Shown here in pieces: positions 4,371 to 47,624 of a stretch of 64,000 nt of DNA. Every line of letters begins with the position of its first letter. Position 1 is the first letter of the stretch. Location of the stretch: positions 62,001 to 126,000 of the forward strand of contig CANJCB010000003.1 of assembly GCA_947473305.1 (NCBI GenBank), in the 5' to 3' direction. The notes below the pieces were generated by a model that did not search any database, was not told the origin of the DNA, and worked only from the letters and a program-made list of their open reading frames with translations. The DNA comes from Rhodospirillales bacterium. Lineage in GTDB: Bacteria > Pseudomonadota > Alphaproteobacteria > ATCC43930 > CGMCC-115725. The position numbers were made by a program, and so were the translations under genes.

Positions 4371-4527
4371 GTCCTTCTCCGCCCTTCAGGGGGGAGAAGG
4401 ATTTAGGATGAGGTGGGGCGAGGGCAGTCTTTACTGCCCGAGCATCTCGCCACCGGTGAAACCCTACCTCACCCCTTCCCACTTCGTGGGTCCCTTCCCT
4501 CTTCCTCCCTAAAGGGCCGGAGAGGGA
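4371..4527. repeat. Interspersed palindromic repeat, copy B
   Basis: The best-preserved full copy. The left unit is GTCCTTCTCC..GGGGGGAGAAGG followed by the conserved TTTAGGATGAGGTGGGGCGA. The inner hairpin at 4422-4439 has arms GGGCAGT/ACTGCCC around CTTT. The right side carries an inverted, degraded unit ending in AAAGGGCCGGAGAGGGA. It lies between serA (stop at 4536) and hisZ (start at 4305), so it would sit inside a serCA-hisZ-purA transcript. Confidence 0.88.
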
Positions 4528-27793: not shown

Positions 27794-27930
27794 GTCCTTC
27801 TCCGCCCCTTGGGGGGAGAAGGATTTAGGAGGAGGTGGGGCGAGGGCAGCTATCTGCCCGAGCATTGTGCCGCCGGTAAGACCCACCCCACCCCGGCCCT
27901 CTCCCCCCTGAAGGGCGGAGAGGGAGAAGT
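27794..27930. repeat. Interspersed palindromic repeat, copy C
   Basis: The left unit is GTCCTTCTCCGCCCCTTGGG GGGAGAAGG-like and the conserved block reads TTTAGGAGGAGGTGGGGCGA. The inner hairpin is GGGCAG/CTGCCC at 27844-27859 around CTAT. The right half is a good inverted unit (GGCCCTCTCCCCCCTGAAGG then GCGGAGAGGG). It lies between two convergent operons and may also end transcription from both sides. Confidence 0.88.
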
Positions 27931-42015: not shown

Positions 42016-43940
42016 CAGGAACCCGGTTGCGGCTCCGGCTCGAAGCCGCCCGCGGTCTTGCCCGAGGGCGGGACCGAGGAACGGCGGCCCGGCGACTTCG
42101 GCGGATCCTCGGCGGGTCCCCCTGTGTCGCGGACGATCTTTTCGCCGCGCATGATGCGACGGATCTCGTCCACCGCCAGCGACTCGAATTCGAGCAAGCC
42201 GTTGGCGATCAAATGCAGCTCGTCGAGATGCTCGGTCAGGATGACGCGGGCCTTGCCCTCGCCTTCCTCGATGATGCGGCGGATCTCCTCGTCGATCACC
42301 CGGGCGGTGGCGTCGGAGACATTCTTGCGCTGGGTCACCGAATGGCCGAGGAAGACTTCCTCCTCGTTCTCGGCGTATTGCAGCGGCCCGAGCTTCTCGC
42401 TGAAGCCCCATTCCGTGACCATCCGGCGGGCGATGTTGGTCGCCTGCTTGATGTCCATGGAAGCGCCCGTGGTCACCATGTCGGCCCCGAAGATCAGTTC
42501 CTCGGCCACGCGGCCGCCGAAGCTTGAGGCGATCCGGCCCTCGTATTCCCGCTTGGAGACGGAATACTTGTCCCGTTCCGGCAGGTACCAGGTGATGCCG
42601 AGCGCACGGCCGCGCGGCACGATCGTCACCTTGTGCAGAGGATCGTGGCCTTCGGTATAGAGGCCGACCAGGGCATGGCCCGCCTCGTGATAGGCGGTCA
42701 GCTTCTTCTCGTCCTCGGTCATGACCATGGAGCGGCGTTCCGCGCCCATATAGACCTTGTCCTTGGCGTGCTCGAATTCGGCCATGGTCACCGACCGTTT
42801 GCCCTTGCGGGCCGCCATCAGAGCCGCCTCGTTGACGAGGTTGGCGAGATCCGCACCCGAAAAGCCCGGCGTGCCGCGCGCGATGGTGCGCGGGTCGACG
42901 TCGGAGGCCAGCGGCACTTTGCGCATATGCACTTTGAGGATCTTCTCGCGACCGACCACATCCGGGTTCGGCACCACGACCTGACGGTCGAAGCGGCCGG
43001 GACGCAGCAAAGCCGGGTCGAGCACGTCGGGACGGTTCGTCGCGGCGATCAGGATCACGCCTTCGTTCGCCTCGAAGCCGTCCATCTCCACCAGCAACTG
43101 GTTGAGGGTCTGCTCGCGCTCGTCGTTGCCACCGCCCAGGCCGGCACCGCGATGGCGGCCCACGGCGTCGATTTCGTCGATGAAGATGATGCAAGGCGCG
43201 TTCTTCTTGCCCTGCTCGAACATGTCACGGACACGGGAGGCACCCACGCCGACGAACATTTCGACGAAGTCCGAGCCCGAGATCGTGAAGAAGGGCACAT
43301 TCGCTTCGCCGGCGATGGCGCGGGCGAGCAGCGTCTTACCGGTGCCGGGAGGACCGACCAGCAACACGCCCTTCGGGATCTTGCCGCCGAGGCGCTGGAA
43401 CTTCTGGGGATCCTTCAGGTAGTCGACGATCTCCTCAAGTTCCTGCTTGGCCTCGTCGATGCCGGCCACGTCGTCGAATGTGATCCGGCCGACCTTCTCG
43501 GTCAGAAGGCGCGCCCGGCTCTTGCCGAAGCCCATGGCCCGACCGCCGCCGCCCTGCATCTGGCGCATGAAGAAGATCCAGACACCGATCAGGAGCAGCA
43601 TCGGGAACCAACTGATCAGGATGCCCAAGAGCGAGGGCGAGCCGTCGTCGGCAGGCGCAGCCTGGATGCGGACACCCTTTTCCTTCAACTGGGCGACGAG
43701 ATTGGGGTCGCTCGGCGCATAGGTGGAGAAGGTGTGATTATCCGTGAGCATCCCGTTGATCGTGTTGCCCTGGATCGTCACCGAGGAAACCTGCCCCCGG
43801 TTCACGTCGTTGAGGAAGTCCGAATAAGCGAGGACCTGCTGCGCGCCGGGCTTCGACGAAGACTGGAAGAGATTGAAGAGCGCCACAAGCAACAGCGCTA
43901 TGATCACCCAAAGCGCCAGATTCTTGCCGAGATTATTCAC
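42015..43940 (-). CDS. ftsH: ATP-dependent zinc metalloprotease FtsH
   Basis: 641 residues, an inner-membrane AAA+ protease. Two transmembrane helices (about 8-25 and 105-125) flank a periplasmic loop. The Walker A motif GPPGTGKT is at 196-203, Walker B is [11 protein letters not shown], the second region of homology is [20 protein letters not shown], and the zinc site is HEAGH near 418. The C-terminal tail is Gly/Pro-rich. It degrades membrane and regulatory proteins. Upstream of folP, downstream of tilS, a conserved order. Confidence 0.98.
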
Positions 43941-44061
43941 AGTCTACGCCCTTCCTTCACCGAACCGGGACATCGGCACTGGCGCACCCCGATGCGCTTG
44001 CCCTATGTCCCACGCCCTCCAGCGACGCTGGCTCAGCTAAAGAGATAAGATGCCCTTGTCT

Positions 44062-45981
44062 CTAAACAACTGTAAAGCCCGCGGTAGAGAGCGGCCGGGT
44101 CGGACGGAAGCTTATCTTTAAGCCGCCAGGGCCGCAAAGCCCTTCGCCGAACCCGTTTCTTGCATAGGGCAGGTGGGGGACCAGGACCACGCCTTCAAGA
44201 TCCCGGATCGCGGGAAGGCTCGGACGCACCGCCGAAGGAATGGCGTCGGCCGCCTTGCCGCAGGCCTTGGCGAGGGCCGGAGCGTCTTGGCCCAAAGCCC
44301 CGAGCGTGAGGCCCGACGGCAGGCTTTCCGGGGCTTCCAAGGCAAATCGCCCATCCCAGAGGGTGGTCGTTCCGGGAACGATCGGGAGCGGCGCCGCGAG
44401 CGCCGCGGGCTCCCGGCAGAGGAGCACCCTGCCCTTCCGGGAGAGGATGCGGCAGCCGCCGAGCGTCGCGCCCGCCCCGAAATCGCCCGCCCCGAGATTG
44501 CCCGCCCCGAGATTGCCCGCCCCGAGATTGCCTGCCGAAAGCCGGTCGTAGAGCCGTTCCAGCCGGTCGAGCCGGGGAGTGTAGTCTTCGCCCCCCACGG
44601 TCGCCAGAAGCGCTGCCAAAGCCCGCAACCCCACCTCGCCGGAGCCGGTGGTGAGCGCCTTCGCCTCGACCCAGGCGAAACCCGCCGGATGGATCATGGC
44701 CGAGCGGACGAGGCATCGGGCGGCAGCCTCCTCGACGGCGGCGCGGCTCCGGGCAAGGCGGGAGGCGGTCTCGGCCAACCGCCGGGGGGTGAGCCCCTCG
44801 GTCGCCAGCAGCGCCGCCGACCGCCGCAGCCGGACGCGCGCATAGGCGGGATCGCGGTTGCTCGGATCCTCGATCCAGGGTTGGCCCAGGGCTTCGAGGG
44901 TCGCGGCGAGGCGCGCGCGGGGAATGGTGAGGAGGGGGCGCAGGAGGCGGCAATCCCGATGCTCCGCGATGGCCGCCATGCCCGCGAGCCCGTCGAGCCC
45001 GCTGCCCCGCGCCAGCCTGAGAAGGAAGGTCTCCGCCTGATCTTCGAGATGATGGGCGAGGAGGAGATGAAGGATGCCGGCTTCCGCGCAGGCCGCTTCG
45101 AGCAGGCGGTAGCGGGCGGAACGCGCGGCGGCCTGGCGCCCCTTGGCGGGATGAGGGCCGTCCCAGCGCAGGGTGCGGTGCCGGATATCTCGGGCGGCGA
45201 GCCAGGACGCCACCTGCCGCGCCTCGGCGGCGGCTTCCGGGCGCAGGCCGTGGTCCACGGTGAGGGCCAGGATCCCGCCGCCCAGATCCCGCGCCCAGCG
45301 GTCGGCGAGGAGGGCCAGGGCGAGACTGTCCGCACCGCCCGAGACGGCGATGGCGAGACGCGGCCCCCGCTCGAAAGGTCCGAGGGGGGACATCAGACGA
45401 GCGAAATCGGATACAGCAACCGCACTGACAGAGCCCTCTCCGCCCTTCAGGGGGGAGAGGGTTGGGTGAGGTGGGTGATTGCCGCTTGAGAGATGCTCCG
45501 GCGCCTCAGCGCCCTCGCCCCACCTCATCCTAAATCCTTCTCCCCCCTCAAGGGTGGAGAAGGACTTTTCTGACGGAGCAGCGGAAGGATCAGAAATCTC
45601 AATAGCTACTCCCTCTCCGCCCCTCCGGGGGGGAGAGGGCCGGGGTGAGGTGGGGCCTTCTTCCAGCTCCCGCCGAATCACCTCCAGCACGCCATCGGTG
45701 TTCTCCAGAACCTCGTTGTTCCAGAATCGGATAATCCGAAACCCGCGCTTTTCGATCTCGGCCGTACGCGTCGCATCCACCTCCGGCGAATGCTGCCCAC
45801 CATCCAGCTCGATCACGAGTTTCCGCGCCACGCAGGCGAAATCGGCAATTCGTCCCTGAATCGGATGCTGCCGCCGGAATTTCCAGGGTAAACCCGCTTC
45901 CCGCAACGCCCACCAAAGCCGCTTTTCGGCCTCAGTCGGCTCGCGCCGCAGCCTTTGCGCGATCGTCGTCGGGCGCGCCAC
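44062..45981 (-). CDS. tilS: DUF559 endonuclease-domain / TilS fused ORF (tRNA(Ile)-lysidine synthetase)
   Basis: One uninterrupted 639-codon frame. Residues 1-109 are a DUF559 domain (Vsr-like PD-(D/E)xK nuclease) with ADFAC and VIELDGGQH as probable active-site strands. Residues about 110-186 are translated from three palindromic repeat half-units (copy D). Residues from 197 on are TilS, with the PP-loop motif SGGADS at 214-219 and VDHGLRPEAA, HHLEDQAETFL; it modifies C34 of tRNA-Ile(CAU) with lysine. The GTG start directly follows the cpoB stop (TAAGTG). A TilS-only ATG at 45393 has no clear ribosome site. A five-residue tandem repeat (GNLGA) lies in the TilS C-terminal half. Whether the product is one protein or TilS alone is open. 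Confidence 0.85.
   Translation of the reverse strand: MARPTTIAQRLRREPTEAEKRLWWALREAGLPWKFRRQHPIQGRIADFACVARKLVIELDGGQHSPEVDATRTAEIEKRGFRIIRFWNNEVLENTDGVLEVIRRELEEGPTSPRPSPPRRGGEGVAIEISDPSAAPSEKSFSTLEGGEGFRMRWGEGAEAPEHLSSGNHPPHPTLSPLKGGEGSVSAVAVSDFARLMSPLGPFERGPRLAIAVSGGADSLALALLADRWARDLGGGILALTVDHGLRPEAAAEARQVASWLAARDIRHRTLRWDGPHPAKGRQAAARSARYRLLEAACAEAGILHLLLAHHLEDQAETFLLRLARGSGLDGLAGMAAIAEHRDCRLLRPLLTIPRARLAATLEALGQPWIEDPSNRDPAYARVRLRRSAALLATEGLTPRRLAETASRLARSRAAVEEAAARCLVRSAMIHPAGFAWVEAKALTTGSGEVGLRALAALLATVGGEDYTPRLDRLERLYDRLSAGNLGAGNLGAGNLGAGDFGAGATLGGCRILSRKGRVLLCREPAALAAPLPIVPGTTTLWDGRFALEAPESLPSGLTLGALGQDAPALAKACGKAADAIPSAVRPSLPAIRDLEGVVLVPHLPYARNGFGEGLCGPGGLKISFRPTRPLSTAGFTVV
44472..44531. 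repeat. 15-bp tandem repeat in tilS
   Basis: The 15-bp unit ATTGCCCGCCCCGAG occurs three times in tandem at the right end, preceded and followed by diverged copies. It encodes GNLGA repeats on the minus strand. Because the unit is a multiple of three, copy-number changes keep the frame. Confidence 0.85.
45432..45656. repeat. Interspersed palindromic repeat, copy D (three half-units, inside an ORF)
   Basis: Three half-units: one forward from 45432, one inverted at 45487-45571 and one forward from 45611 to about 45656. The inverted unit restores the conserved block when read on the minus strand and has inner arms GGCGC/GCGCC (45500-45513). Unlike copies A-C it lies within an open frame, forming the linker of the DUF559-TilS ORF without adding a stop. 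Confidence 0.88.
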
Positions 45982-46938
45982 TTAGCACGCGAGCTTCTGC
46001 TTCTCGCCGGTGCTCACGTCCTTGATGTTCTGGGGCACGATGGGGAAGTCGCGGTCGAGGCGCTGATAGGCCTTGCAGGCGTCCGCCTTCTGGCCCATCC
46101 GGCCCAGCGACATGCCGAGCTTCAGGAGATAGTCCGGCCCCTTCCCGCTCTTGGGGAACTTCTGGTAGCCCTCGGCGAAGGTCGCGGCGGCGTCCTTGAA
46201 GTCGGAGCGCACGTAGAAGGTCTCGCCCAGCCAGTATTGCGCGTTGGCGGTCATCGGATGGGCCGGATTCTTCTGGATGAAACTGCGCAGCGCCTGTTCG
46301 GCGTCCGGATATTTGCTGGAGCGCAGCAGGCCGATGGCATAGTCGTATTGCTCCTCGGCCGTGCCCGCCGGGACGTTGGCGCCAGGGCCCCGCGCGGCGG
46401 CCGGGGTCGGCGCGCCGCTGCCGGTGGTGGAAAGCGTGCCGAGATTGCCGGACTGGCTGGCCGGGGCGGTGGGGTCGCTGGCACCGCGCGGCGGCGGCGG
46501 GACGGAGGCGGTGGTATTGCCCGCGCCCCGGGGCGGCGGCGGGACGTTGGCGGCCTGCTCCTTCGGCGCGTCGCCCGGGCGCTCCAGCGCCGAGAGGCGC
46601 AGATCCACGTCGTTCACCAGCTTTTCGAGCCGGGTGCGGAGCTGGCTGATCCCGTTGTTGGCCTCTTCGAGCTGGCCGCGCAGGGAGCGCATCTGGTCGT
46701 CAATCTGGCCGAATCGCACCTCGGCGTTGAGCGCGGCCGAGGAATCGACCGGAGCCATGGGCACGGGCGCGCCGGCGGCGCTACCGGGACGATAGACCTG
46801 ACGCTGAAGCTGGTTGATGTCCCGTTCGAGCCGGTCCATCCGGTCGAGCAAGGGGCGCACGTCCTGGGCGCGGGAAACGCCGCAGAAGGGAATAAGCATC
46901 AGCCCGGTCAGGGCCGCGGTGAGAGCCAGTCGTCGCAT
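45982..46938 (-). CDS. cpoB: Tol-Pal system protein CpoB (YbgF)
   Basis: 318 residues from the ATG at 46938. The signal peptide ends near SRA (about 24). An N-terminal coiled coil (LLDRMDRLERDINQLQRQV and a second at 77-112) is followed by a Pro/Gly-rich linker with two PPPPRGA blocks and a C-terminal TPR region (YDYAIGLLRSSKYPDAEQAL, AQYWLGETFYVRSDFKDAA). CpoB is periplasmic and links Tol with PBP1B peptidoglycan synthesis. It follows pal after a terminator and abuts the DUF559 start. Confidence 0.95.
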   Translation of the reverse strand: MRRLALTAALTGLMLIPFCGVSRAQDVRPLLDRMDRLERDINQLQRQVYRPGSAAGAPVPMAPVDSSAALNAEVRFGQIDDQMRSLRGQLEEANNGISQLRTRLEKLVNDVDLRLSALERPGDAPKEQAANVPPPPRGAGNTTASVPPPPRGASDPTAPASQSGNLGTLSTTGSGAPTPAAARGPGANVPAGTAEEQYDYAIGLLRSSKYPDAEQALRSFIQKNPAHPMTANAQYWLGETFYVRSDFKDAAATFAEGYQKFPKSGKGPDYLLKLGMSLGRMGQKADACKAYQRLDRDFPIVPQNIKDVSTGEKQKLAC

Positions 46939-47031
46939 GGTCCCAATACCTTCAGCCGATCGGCGCCGGCGAACGCCGGGAACGGCGGGCCGCGCGTCGA
47001 ATGAATCGACAAGCTGCATTAGATTCTAGGC

Positions 47032-47099
47032 AAAAAAAGGGCGTCTGCCCATTCCCCAACCGGGTCATGACCCAAGCTGGGGAGAGGCAGGCGCCCTTT
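47032..47099 (-). terminator. Intrinsic terminator after pal
   Basis: On the minus strand AAAGGGCGCCTGCC pairs with GGGCAGACGCCCTTT-like sequence across a branched loop (inner CCCCAGCTTGGG and GGTCATGACC), and a run of seven T follows. It lies 22 bp after the pal stop and would separate tol-pal from cpoB, at least in part. Confidence 0.85.
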
Positions 47100-47120
47100 A
47101 TGCGTCTGATCTGACAGAGA

Positions 47121-47624
47121 TCAGTTGACGACAGAAACGCCGCGGCGGTTCTGGCTGTAGGCGGCGTCGTTCGAACCGACCACGGCCGGACGTTCCTTGC
47201 CGTAGCTGATCGTCGAAACGCGGTTCGCGGGGATGCCCAGCGCGACGAGCGCCTTCTTCACCGAATTCGCGCGACGCTCGCCGAGCGCCAGGTTGTACTC
47301 GCGCGTGCCGCGCTCGTCGCAATGGCCTTCGACGGTCAGGGTCACGTTCGGGTACTGCTTCAGCCAAGCGGCCTGCTTCGCGAGGGTCTGCTGACCTTCC
47401 GACGCAATGTCGCTCTTGTCGAAAGCGAAGAACACGCGATCGCCGACGTTCTGCTTGAAGTCTTCAGCCGAACCGGGGCGAATAGCGGTCGAAGTCGTCG
47501 AGCCGCCCGTCGCCGGCGACGTGGTAGCCGACGTACCGCCAGTGGCCGCCGTCGTCTTCGTGTCATCGGCGCAACCCGCCAGCAGCAACACAGCCGCAAC
47601 CAAACTCAATGCTTTAATATTCAT
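47121..47624 (-). CDS. pal: Peptidoglycan-associated lipoprotein
   Basis: 167 residues from the ATG at 47624 (ribosome site GAGGAG). The lipobox LLAGC gives a lipid-anchored Cys near residue 18, followed by a Thr/Ala-rich linker of about 40 residues. The OmpA-like domain has VFFAFDKSDIASEGQQTL and VTVEGHCDERGTREYN-like segments, with LALGERRANSVKKAL for diaminopimelate binding. It tethers the outer membrane to peptidoglycan and binds TolB. Confidence 0.97.
   Translation of the reverse strand: MNIKALSLVAAVLLLAGCADDTKTTAATGGTSATTSPATGGSTTSTAIRPGSAEDFKQNVGDRVFFAFDKSDIASEGQQTLAKQAAWLKQYPNVTLTVEGHCDERGTREYNLALGERRANSVKKALVALGIPANRVSTISYGKERPAVVGSNDAAYSQNRRGVSVVN

Follow-up and report, generated by a model that had tools for sequence, protein, structure and literature searches.

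A DUF559 nuclease gene with triplex-type motif ends at the ybgF-tilS junction of a Rhodospirillales bacterium: a proposed REPtron-like cassette

In the genome of a Rhodospirillales bacterium (GenBank assembly GCA_947473305.1) a nuclease-like domain and the tRNA-modifying enzyme TilS share one open reading frame, and the locus raises the question of how the two came together and whether either depends on the other. The window, i.e. the whole stretch of DNA analysed, covers 64,000 bp of contig CANJCB010000003.1 (positions 62,001 to 126,000). The frame of 639 codons (44062..45981, minus strand) begins with a GTG that abuts the TAA stop codon of ybgF (45982..47019, minus strand; TolA-binding/TPR protein with TPR_16 and TolA_bind_tri matches), the usual upstream neighbour of tilS, adjacent to it in relatives. 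Residues 1-108 (45658..45981, minus strand) form the DUF559 nuclease domain, identified by its Pfam match (PF04480, residues 5-106, E 1e-32; 112.4 bits against a cut-off of 20.6, profile positions 4-108 of 109), its conserved residues and its fold. TilS homology runs, apparently intact, from about residue 186 to the end (44062..45426, minus strand), with Pfam ATP_bind_3 at residues 209-387 (E 2e-48), NCBIfam TilS_N at residues 209-388 and the TilS PP-loop ATPase domain (TIGR02432 equivalent) at 163 bits against 93.6. A 15-base tandem repeat that encodes AGNLG-type pentapeptides is located in the tilS interior (44470-44529), near the C-terminal part. Between the domains lie approximately 77 residues (about 109-185) whose codons come from three palindromic motifs (45611-45650, 45504-45563 and 45434-45471). 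The open frame, the pairing of a DUF559 domain with an intact TilS, and the linker derived from repeats within 45434-45650, all described in a first-pass annotation, are confirmed.

The ybgF-tilS junction was compared in other species, the source genus being represented by a single genome in the collection. YbgF was found at 28 of 29 loci (L004-L032; the 29th, L023, begins at a contig end) and was located directly upstream of TilS in 28/28, none of which had DUF559 at tilS. The gaps between the two genes were mostly below 90 bp, the longest, counted up to the first residue aligned, being about 200 bp. DUF559 was likewise missing from all 80 further tilS loci of a named collection, which may overlap with the first set in species; YbgF adjoined TilS in 75 of them, with the repeat motif in 0/75 of the intervals. 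Three of the 75 (L239, L245 and L259) have gaps of 677-758 bp that contain no DUF559. Since DUF559 is missing at tilS in other species, its presence here is an insertion. The 28 and 75 loci in which YbgF adjoins a TilS free of DUF559 also undercut the suggestion that tRNA modification may depend on the fused frame.

That suggestion had its origin in the start codon. The ATG at 45391..45393 (minus strand) had been proposed as the start of TilS alone, with the remark that no ribosome site is visible. The remark holds, as no Shine-Dalgarno sequence (SD) is present there. The codon itself is an internal methionine (M197) and not a start, because the homology with TilS of relatives extends 10-15 residues beyond it on the N-terminal side and the relatives' own starts are located upstream. 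An in-frame ATG carried by the repeat (45526..45528, minus strand), with the SD AGAAGGA at 45535-45541, is a candidate start that would give TilS without DUF559 and leaves the dependence unsupported. Pairing with the anti-SD gave -3.2 kcal/mol for GTG 45981, -11.0 for ATG 45528 and 0.0 for ATG 45393, which places ATG 45528 in the best 1.3% of the 4,799 NTG codons of the window. Its SD sits within a stable hairpin; this could be opened by ribosomes that arrive from DUF559 and read across it. The string GGAGAAGGATTTAGGATG was found in most of 29 further copies of the repeat aligned from the same genome, and the start is therefore portable and was overlooked in the first-pass annotation. Insertion can thus replace the start of an essential gene by one that the repeat carries.

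By sequence, the repeats match the intrastrand triplex motif (TM) that, in the parts of Holder et al. 2015 (PMC4666352) drawn on here, is recorded with 23 copies in E. coli MG1655 and in more than 260 prokaryotic genomes, and whose E. coli form adopts a triplex in vitro. Positions 45434-45471 and 45611-45650 follow the same order of pyrimidine arm, purine arm and third purine tract, and copies of the repeat are close to entries in the compared part of Table 1 of that paper. The motif at 45611..45650 marks the right end of the cassette, with its tag (45643-45650) facing DUF559; on the left side the window cassette has no TM. The other two linker motifs form a gene-less unit of about 135 bp (45434..45568) that consists of palindrome, tag, interior, tag and palindrome. 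Several of the 29 further aligned copies of this unit are incomplete, and the flanks of the copies are unrelated to each other. Other copies in the window are located at 113-162, 4373-4526 and 27796-27924. In the motif lists the tag is GGGTGAGG-like. Chance does not account for the repeats: the motif pattern matches 40-46 times in this genome, its reversed control 0 times. A search of 43500-47500 against Rfam at gathering scores gave no match.

The surroundings of DUF559 genes in other genomes were examined at 77 loci (76 distinct, as L040 and L086 are the same), 20 of them hand-picked among the best DUF559 places and 57 selected automatically as the best matches. An earlier, looser scan, which found motifs at 73/77 loci in mixed orientations (tag inward 36/23 upstream and 36/26 downstream), was replaced by a stricter one. 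With the latter, a TM occurs within 150 bp of 64/77 DUF559 loci and in 5/432 shifted control intervals, about equally often upstream and downstream of the gene (49 vs 53). When the upstream flank was compared with the reverse complement of the downstream flank, 43/77 loci scored at least 40, as against 3/812 shifted intervals; at a score of at least 31 the numbers were 53/77 loci and 0/199 window ORFs. At the latter score 121/759 pairings of flanks across genomes also matched, and the cassette ends therefore belong to one family. Examples are a DUF559 gene in G131 between identical 39-mers (C10:211031-211336) and one in G390 (495148-495405) between motifs at 495046 and 495484. At L118 (G376 C31) DUF559 lies between inverted flanks some 100 bp long, and the contig has two more DUF559 matches; at L037 (G040 C559) TM-type palindromes separate the first DUF559 frame from a second, partial one after it. 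The records of the plasmid collection were poorer: 2/10 DUF559 loci pass the inverted-flank score of 31, several others have a one-sided motif, and no clean empty sites were found among the Azospirillum, Sinorhizobium and E. coli records.

Across genomes the association of DUF559 with TMs is strong. Among 193 alphaproteobacterial genomes, a narrow motif pattern was found in 34/43 that carry a full DUF559 (best E at most 1e-20) and in 7/150 without (Fisher 1e-22, uncorrected for kinship); at least ten copies were present in 20/43 and 0/150, respectively, and the reversed pattern had 0 matches in the genomes listed. The first pattern was drawn up after the cassette flanks had been seen. A wider motif, applied to 199 genomes of the phylum, was found in 48/59 DUF559-positive genomes and 17/140 others (Fisher likewise uncorrected for kinship), and outside the Alphaproteobacteria in 17/20 and 14/108; its reversed control was not zero throughout, e.g. 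12 matches in G283. Compared family by family with the narrow motif, 16/19 discordant families are in favour of the association, 3 are ties and 0 are against, a result that depends on the pattern since G077 goes from 0 matches with the narrow pattern to 47 with the wider one. DUF559-positive genomes devoid of TMs number 9/43 (narrow motif) and 11/59 (wider motif). TM copies are also numerous in genomes that have no DUF559 (47 in G077, 60 in G283, 109 in G377, 36 in G278, 20 in G354 and 11 in G251). When these were searched again with a DUF559 profile of 50 rows, nothing was found in G077, G283 and G251, and G377, G354 and G278 gave weak matches only, in frames of about 2,000 aa. The TM-rich genome G315 has a frame-broken DUF559 copy. 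Unlike those of the cassette, the paired TMs of G077 and G377 have their tags pointing outward and are separated by spacers of fixed length (in G077 often 24 nt).

The existence of such TM-rich genomes would be expected if DUF559 were a passenger lodged between TMs that act as recombination hotspots or insertion targets and spread by other means, as would the raised variability at TM sites that Holder et al. (PMC4666352), in the parts drawn on here, link to genome instability in E. coli. This reading is unlikely, as the tags face the DUF559 gene in 93/102 cases under the stricter scan and other genes in these loci, used as gene-bounded controls, are bracketed in 1/168 at the inverted-flank score of at least 31. 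The type of the ends moreover follows the genome: for 13 cassette-adjacent TMs, with strings chosen and copied by hand, the nearest dispersed TM is in the same genome for 12.5, compared with 1.3 by chance. Read by eye, the cassette of L034 shares both its ends with the gene-less unit of this genome.

Residues E19, D47, E58, D60 and H64 of DUF559 do not vary across an alignment of 50 homologues that has the window protein as row 1, and E19, D47, E58 and D60 are the conserved acidic residues of the PD-(D/E)XK type. The predicted model (pLDDT 88.6) matches a Neisseria DUF559 structure, 3hrl (Z 13.9), the catalytic domain of I-Bth0305I, a homing endonuclease (Z 11.3), and Vsr (Z 9.4 and 8.5). Mitochondrial ribosomes have RAP-type parts that reach Z 9.2 to 9.7. 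Searches of PADLOC and PHROGs with the domain gave no match. YcjD had already been linked to Vsr in the part of Kosinski et al. 2005 drawn on here. By its modelled fold, a nickase or homing-type role of DUF559 is plausible. The Vsr-like fold of the model would also suit a housekeeping nuclease of the host whose task is to process or remove TM structures and which selection keeps in their vicinity, the TMs not being its mobile ends; Caulobacter VsrA, a DUF559 protein, is tied to DNA damage in the portion of PMC12907096 consulted. We consider this improbable. The patchy occurrence of DUF559 (43/193 and 59/199 genomes) and its insertion inside hsdM both resemble the behaviour of a mobile gene. 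In G260 the cassette is placed in frame within HsdM at residues 477-629, with DUF559 at 501-608 and both N6_Mtase and HsdM_N found; the HsdM of the congeners G277 and G250 is devoid of residues ~477-629, and in G335 the same spot is occupied by a gene-less palindrome pair.

HsdM is one of three neighbours into which DUF559 frames run or in which they are nested (3/77 loci). The other two are MurB in G361, where the DUF559 frame continues into a gene that has an ATG of its own, and CbiG_C in G341, entered in the same way. It is very unlikely that, as first proposed, selection built a DUF559-TilS fusion that carries a tethered nuclease and is required for lysidine modification. The frame is open through the repeats, the ancestral TilS start was not found, and DUF559 frames elsewhere mostly end within 60 residues past the domain (71/77), all of which would fit such a fusion; against it, the fusion was seen in this genome only, the in-repeat start at 45528 is strong, and the fusions with MurB, CbiG and HsdM are comparable accidents. 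Fusion appears to be a recurrent by-product of the cassette, and the predicted 639-aa protein a chance product of the insertion; a functional tethered nuclease is not needed to account for it. The DUF559 gene with its TM ends would have entered the junction, and a gene-less 135-bp copy of the ends would have come with it or later. The ancestral tilS start would have been displaced and its role taken over by the ATG at 45528, which comes with its SD from the repeat; that the DUF559 frame continues into TilS would be accidental. That the repeats serve a small gene merely as terminators or as stabilisers of its mRNA is hardly tenable, for all the strength of their hairpins, given that upstream copies are as common as downstream ones, that the Rfam terminator families had no match over 43500-47500, and that earlier work cited in the part of Holder et al. 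(PMC4666352) used here reported neither promoter nor terminator activity.

Presence and absence of TMs were also followed in E. coli. Between hrpB and mrcB, MG1655 has a TM pair where the two strains compared have 12 bases, and 13 of the 40 matches listed share 89% coverage in two pieces. Between alx and sstT, part of a TM pair is missing in one strain and unrelated sequence is present in another. TM copy no. 9 of MG1655 (1351239-1351204) is located 168 bp 3' of ycjD, the DUF559 gene of E. coli, whose region is covered to at least 80% in 3333/5426 genomes. The ycjD locus was rejected as a clean empty site, the two strains examined having other genes between fabI and sapF: in L270 and L271 (SMS-3-5 and JCM 20135) transport/efflux genes replace ycjD in this interval. 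The loci compared showed neither a transposition event nor a duplicated target.

Based on the insertion relative to other species, the TM bracketing, the orientation of the tags, the co-occurrence, the same-genome ends, the hsdM insertion, the fold, the L034 ends and the hrpB-mrcB difference, we propose a REPtron-like element whose enzyme is a PD-(D/E)XK nuclease. The locus probably holds a cassette inserted at ybgF-tilS, namely a DUF559 gene of the Vsr/homing-endonuclease fold with TM ends. The nuclease would recognise the TM end, a hairpin plus purine tag, while single-stranded during replication or repair, and would nick or cut there; repair would then copy the unit, including the nuclease gene, to a new place. 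Gene-less TM pairs would be mobilised by it in trans. The proposal is weakened by the TM-rich genomes free of DUF559 and the DUF559 genomes free of TMs, by the low yield of the plasmid records, the missing left TM of the window cassette and the tag-outward pairs, and by the lack of a clean empty site at ycjD and of an observed transposition or target duplication. Such cassettes are present in many bacteria and may be spreaders of the long-unexplained triplex-type repeats. More tentatively, and short of what we would call probable, DUF559 genes with inward TM ends could constitute widespread minimal mobile elements. Their homing-type nuclease would recognise the hairpin/triplex end and spread both its own gene and, in trans, gene-less pairs, and it would be the source that has been missing for bacterial TMs.

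The repeats share with TM_ECO/PIT, as given in the parts of PMC4666352 drawn on here, the sequence plan CCCTCTCCC and the arrangement in inverted A+B pairs. Those parts leave the origin of TMs unclear, report no transposase or integrase remnants nearby, name no mobility gene and do not contain the string DUF, whereas here the motif brackets DUF559 genes. Full-text searches of an open-access library turned up no link of DUF559, YcjD or Vsr-like genes to TMs. If the proposal is true, a motif of open origin in more than 260 prokaryotes becomes a testable system with a dedicated nuclease, and a large family of unknown function gains a function. The window protein is a full-length member of the DUF559/YcjD family (PF04480), but is joined in frame to TilS. 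Rickettsia palindromic elements are likewise read in frame within a protein gene, but here the repeat brings along a nuclease gene. I-Bth0305I and Vsr share the predicted fold; the cassette differs from them in that it has no intron or intein host and its ends are structured repeats. The CGTC REPs, an alphaproteobacterial class without known transposase in the portion of Di Nocera 2013 (PMC3733652) used here, were rejected as the repeat family, as the repeats here match neither the CGTC tag nor the stems that start with AT. In its workings the cassette resembles REP/REPIN with RAYT, the REPtron of the same portion of that paper: inverted palindromes bracket one gene, gene-less pairs are scattered over the same genome, and the repeat type is matched to the gene. 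Bracketing by dispersed inverted palindromes is found across the DUF559 family and, in the window, on the right side only. The REPtron enzyme is an HUH tyrosine transposase with the tag GTAG; the cassette has the PD-(D/E)XK enzyme DUF559 and another motif and tag, different also from CGTC. The cassette works like a REPtron with a Vsr/homing-type nuclease and falls outside the RAYT family; if its mobility is true, it represents a second, unrelated way of building a REPtron-like element.
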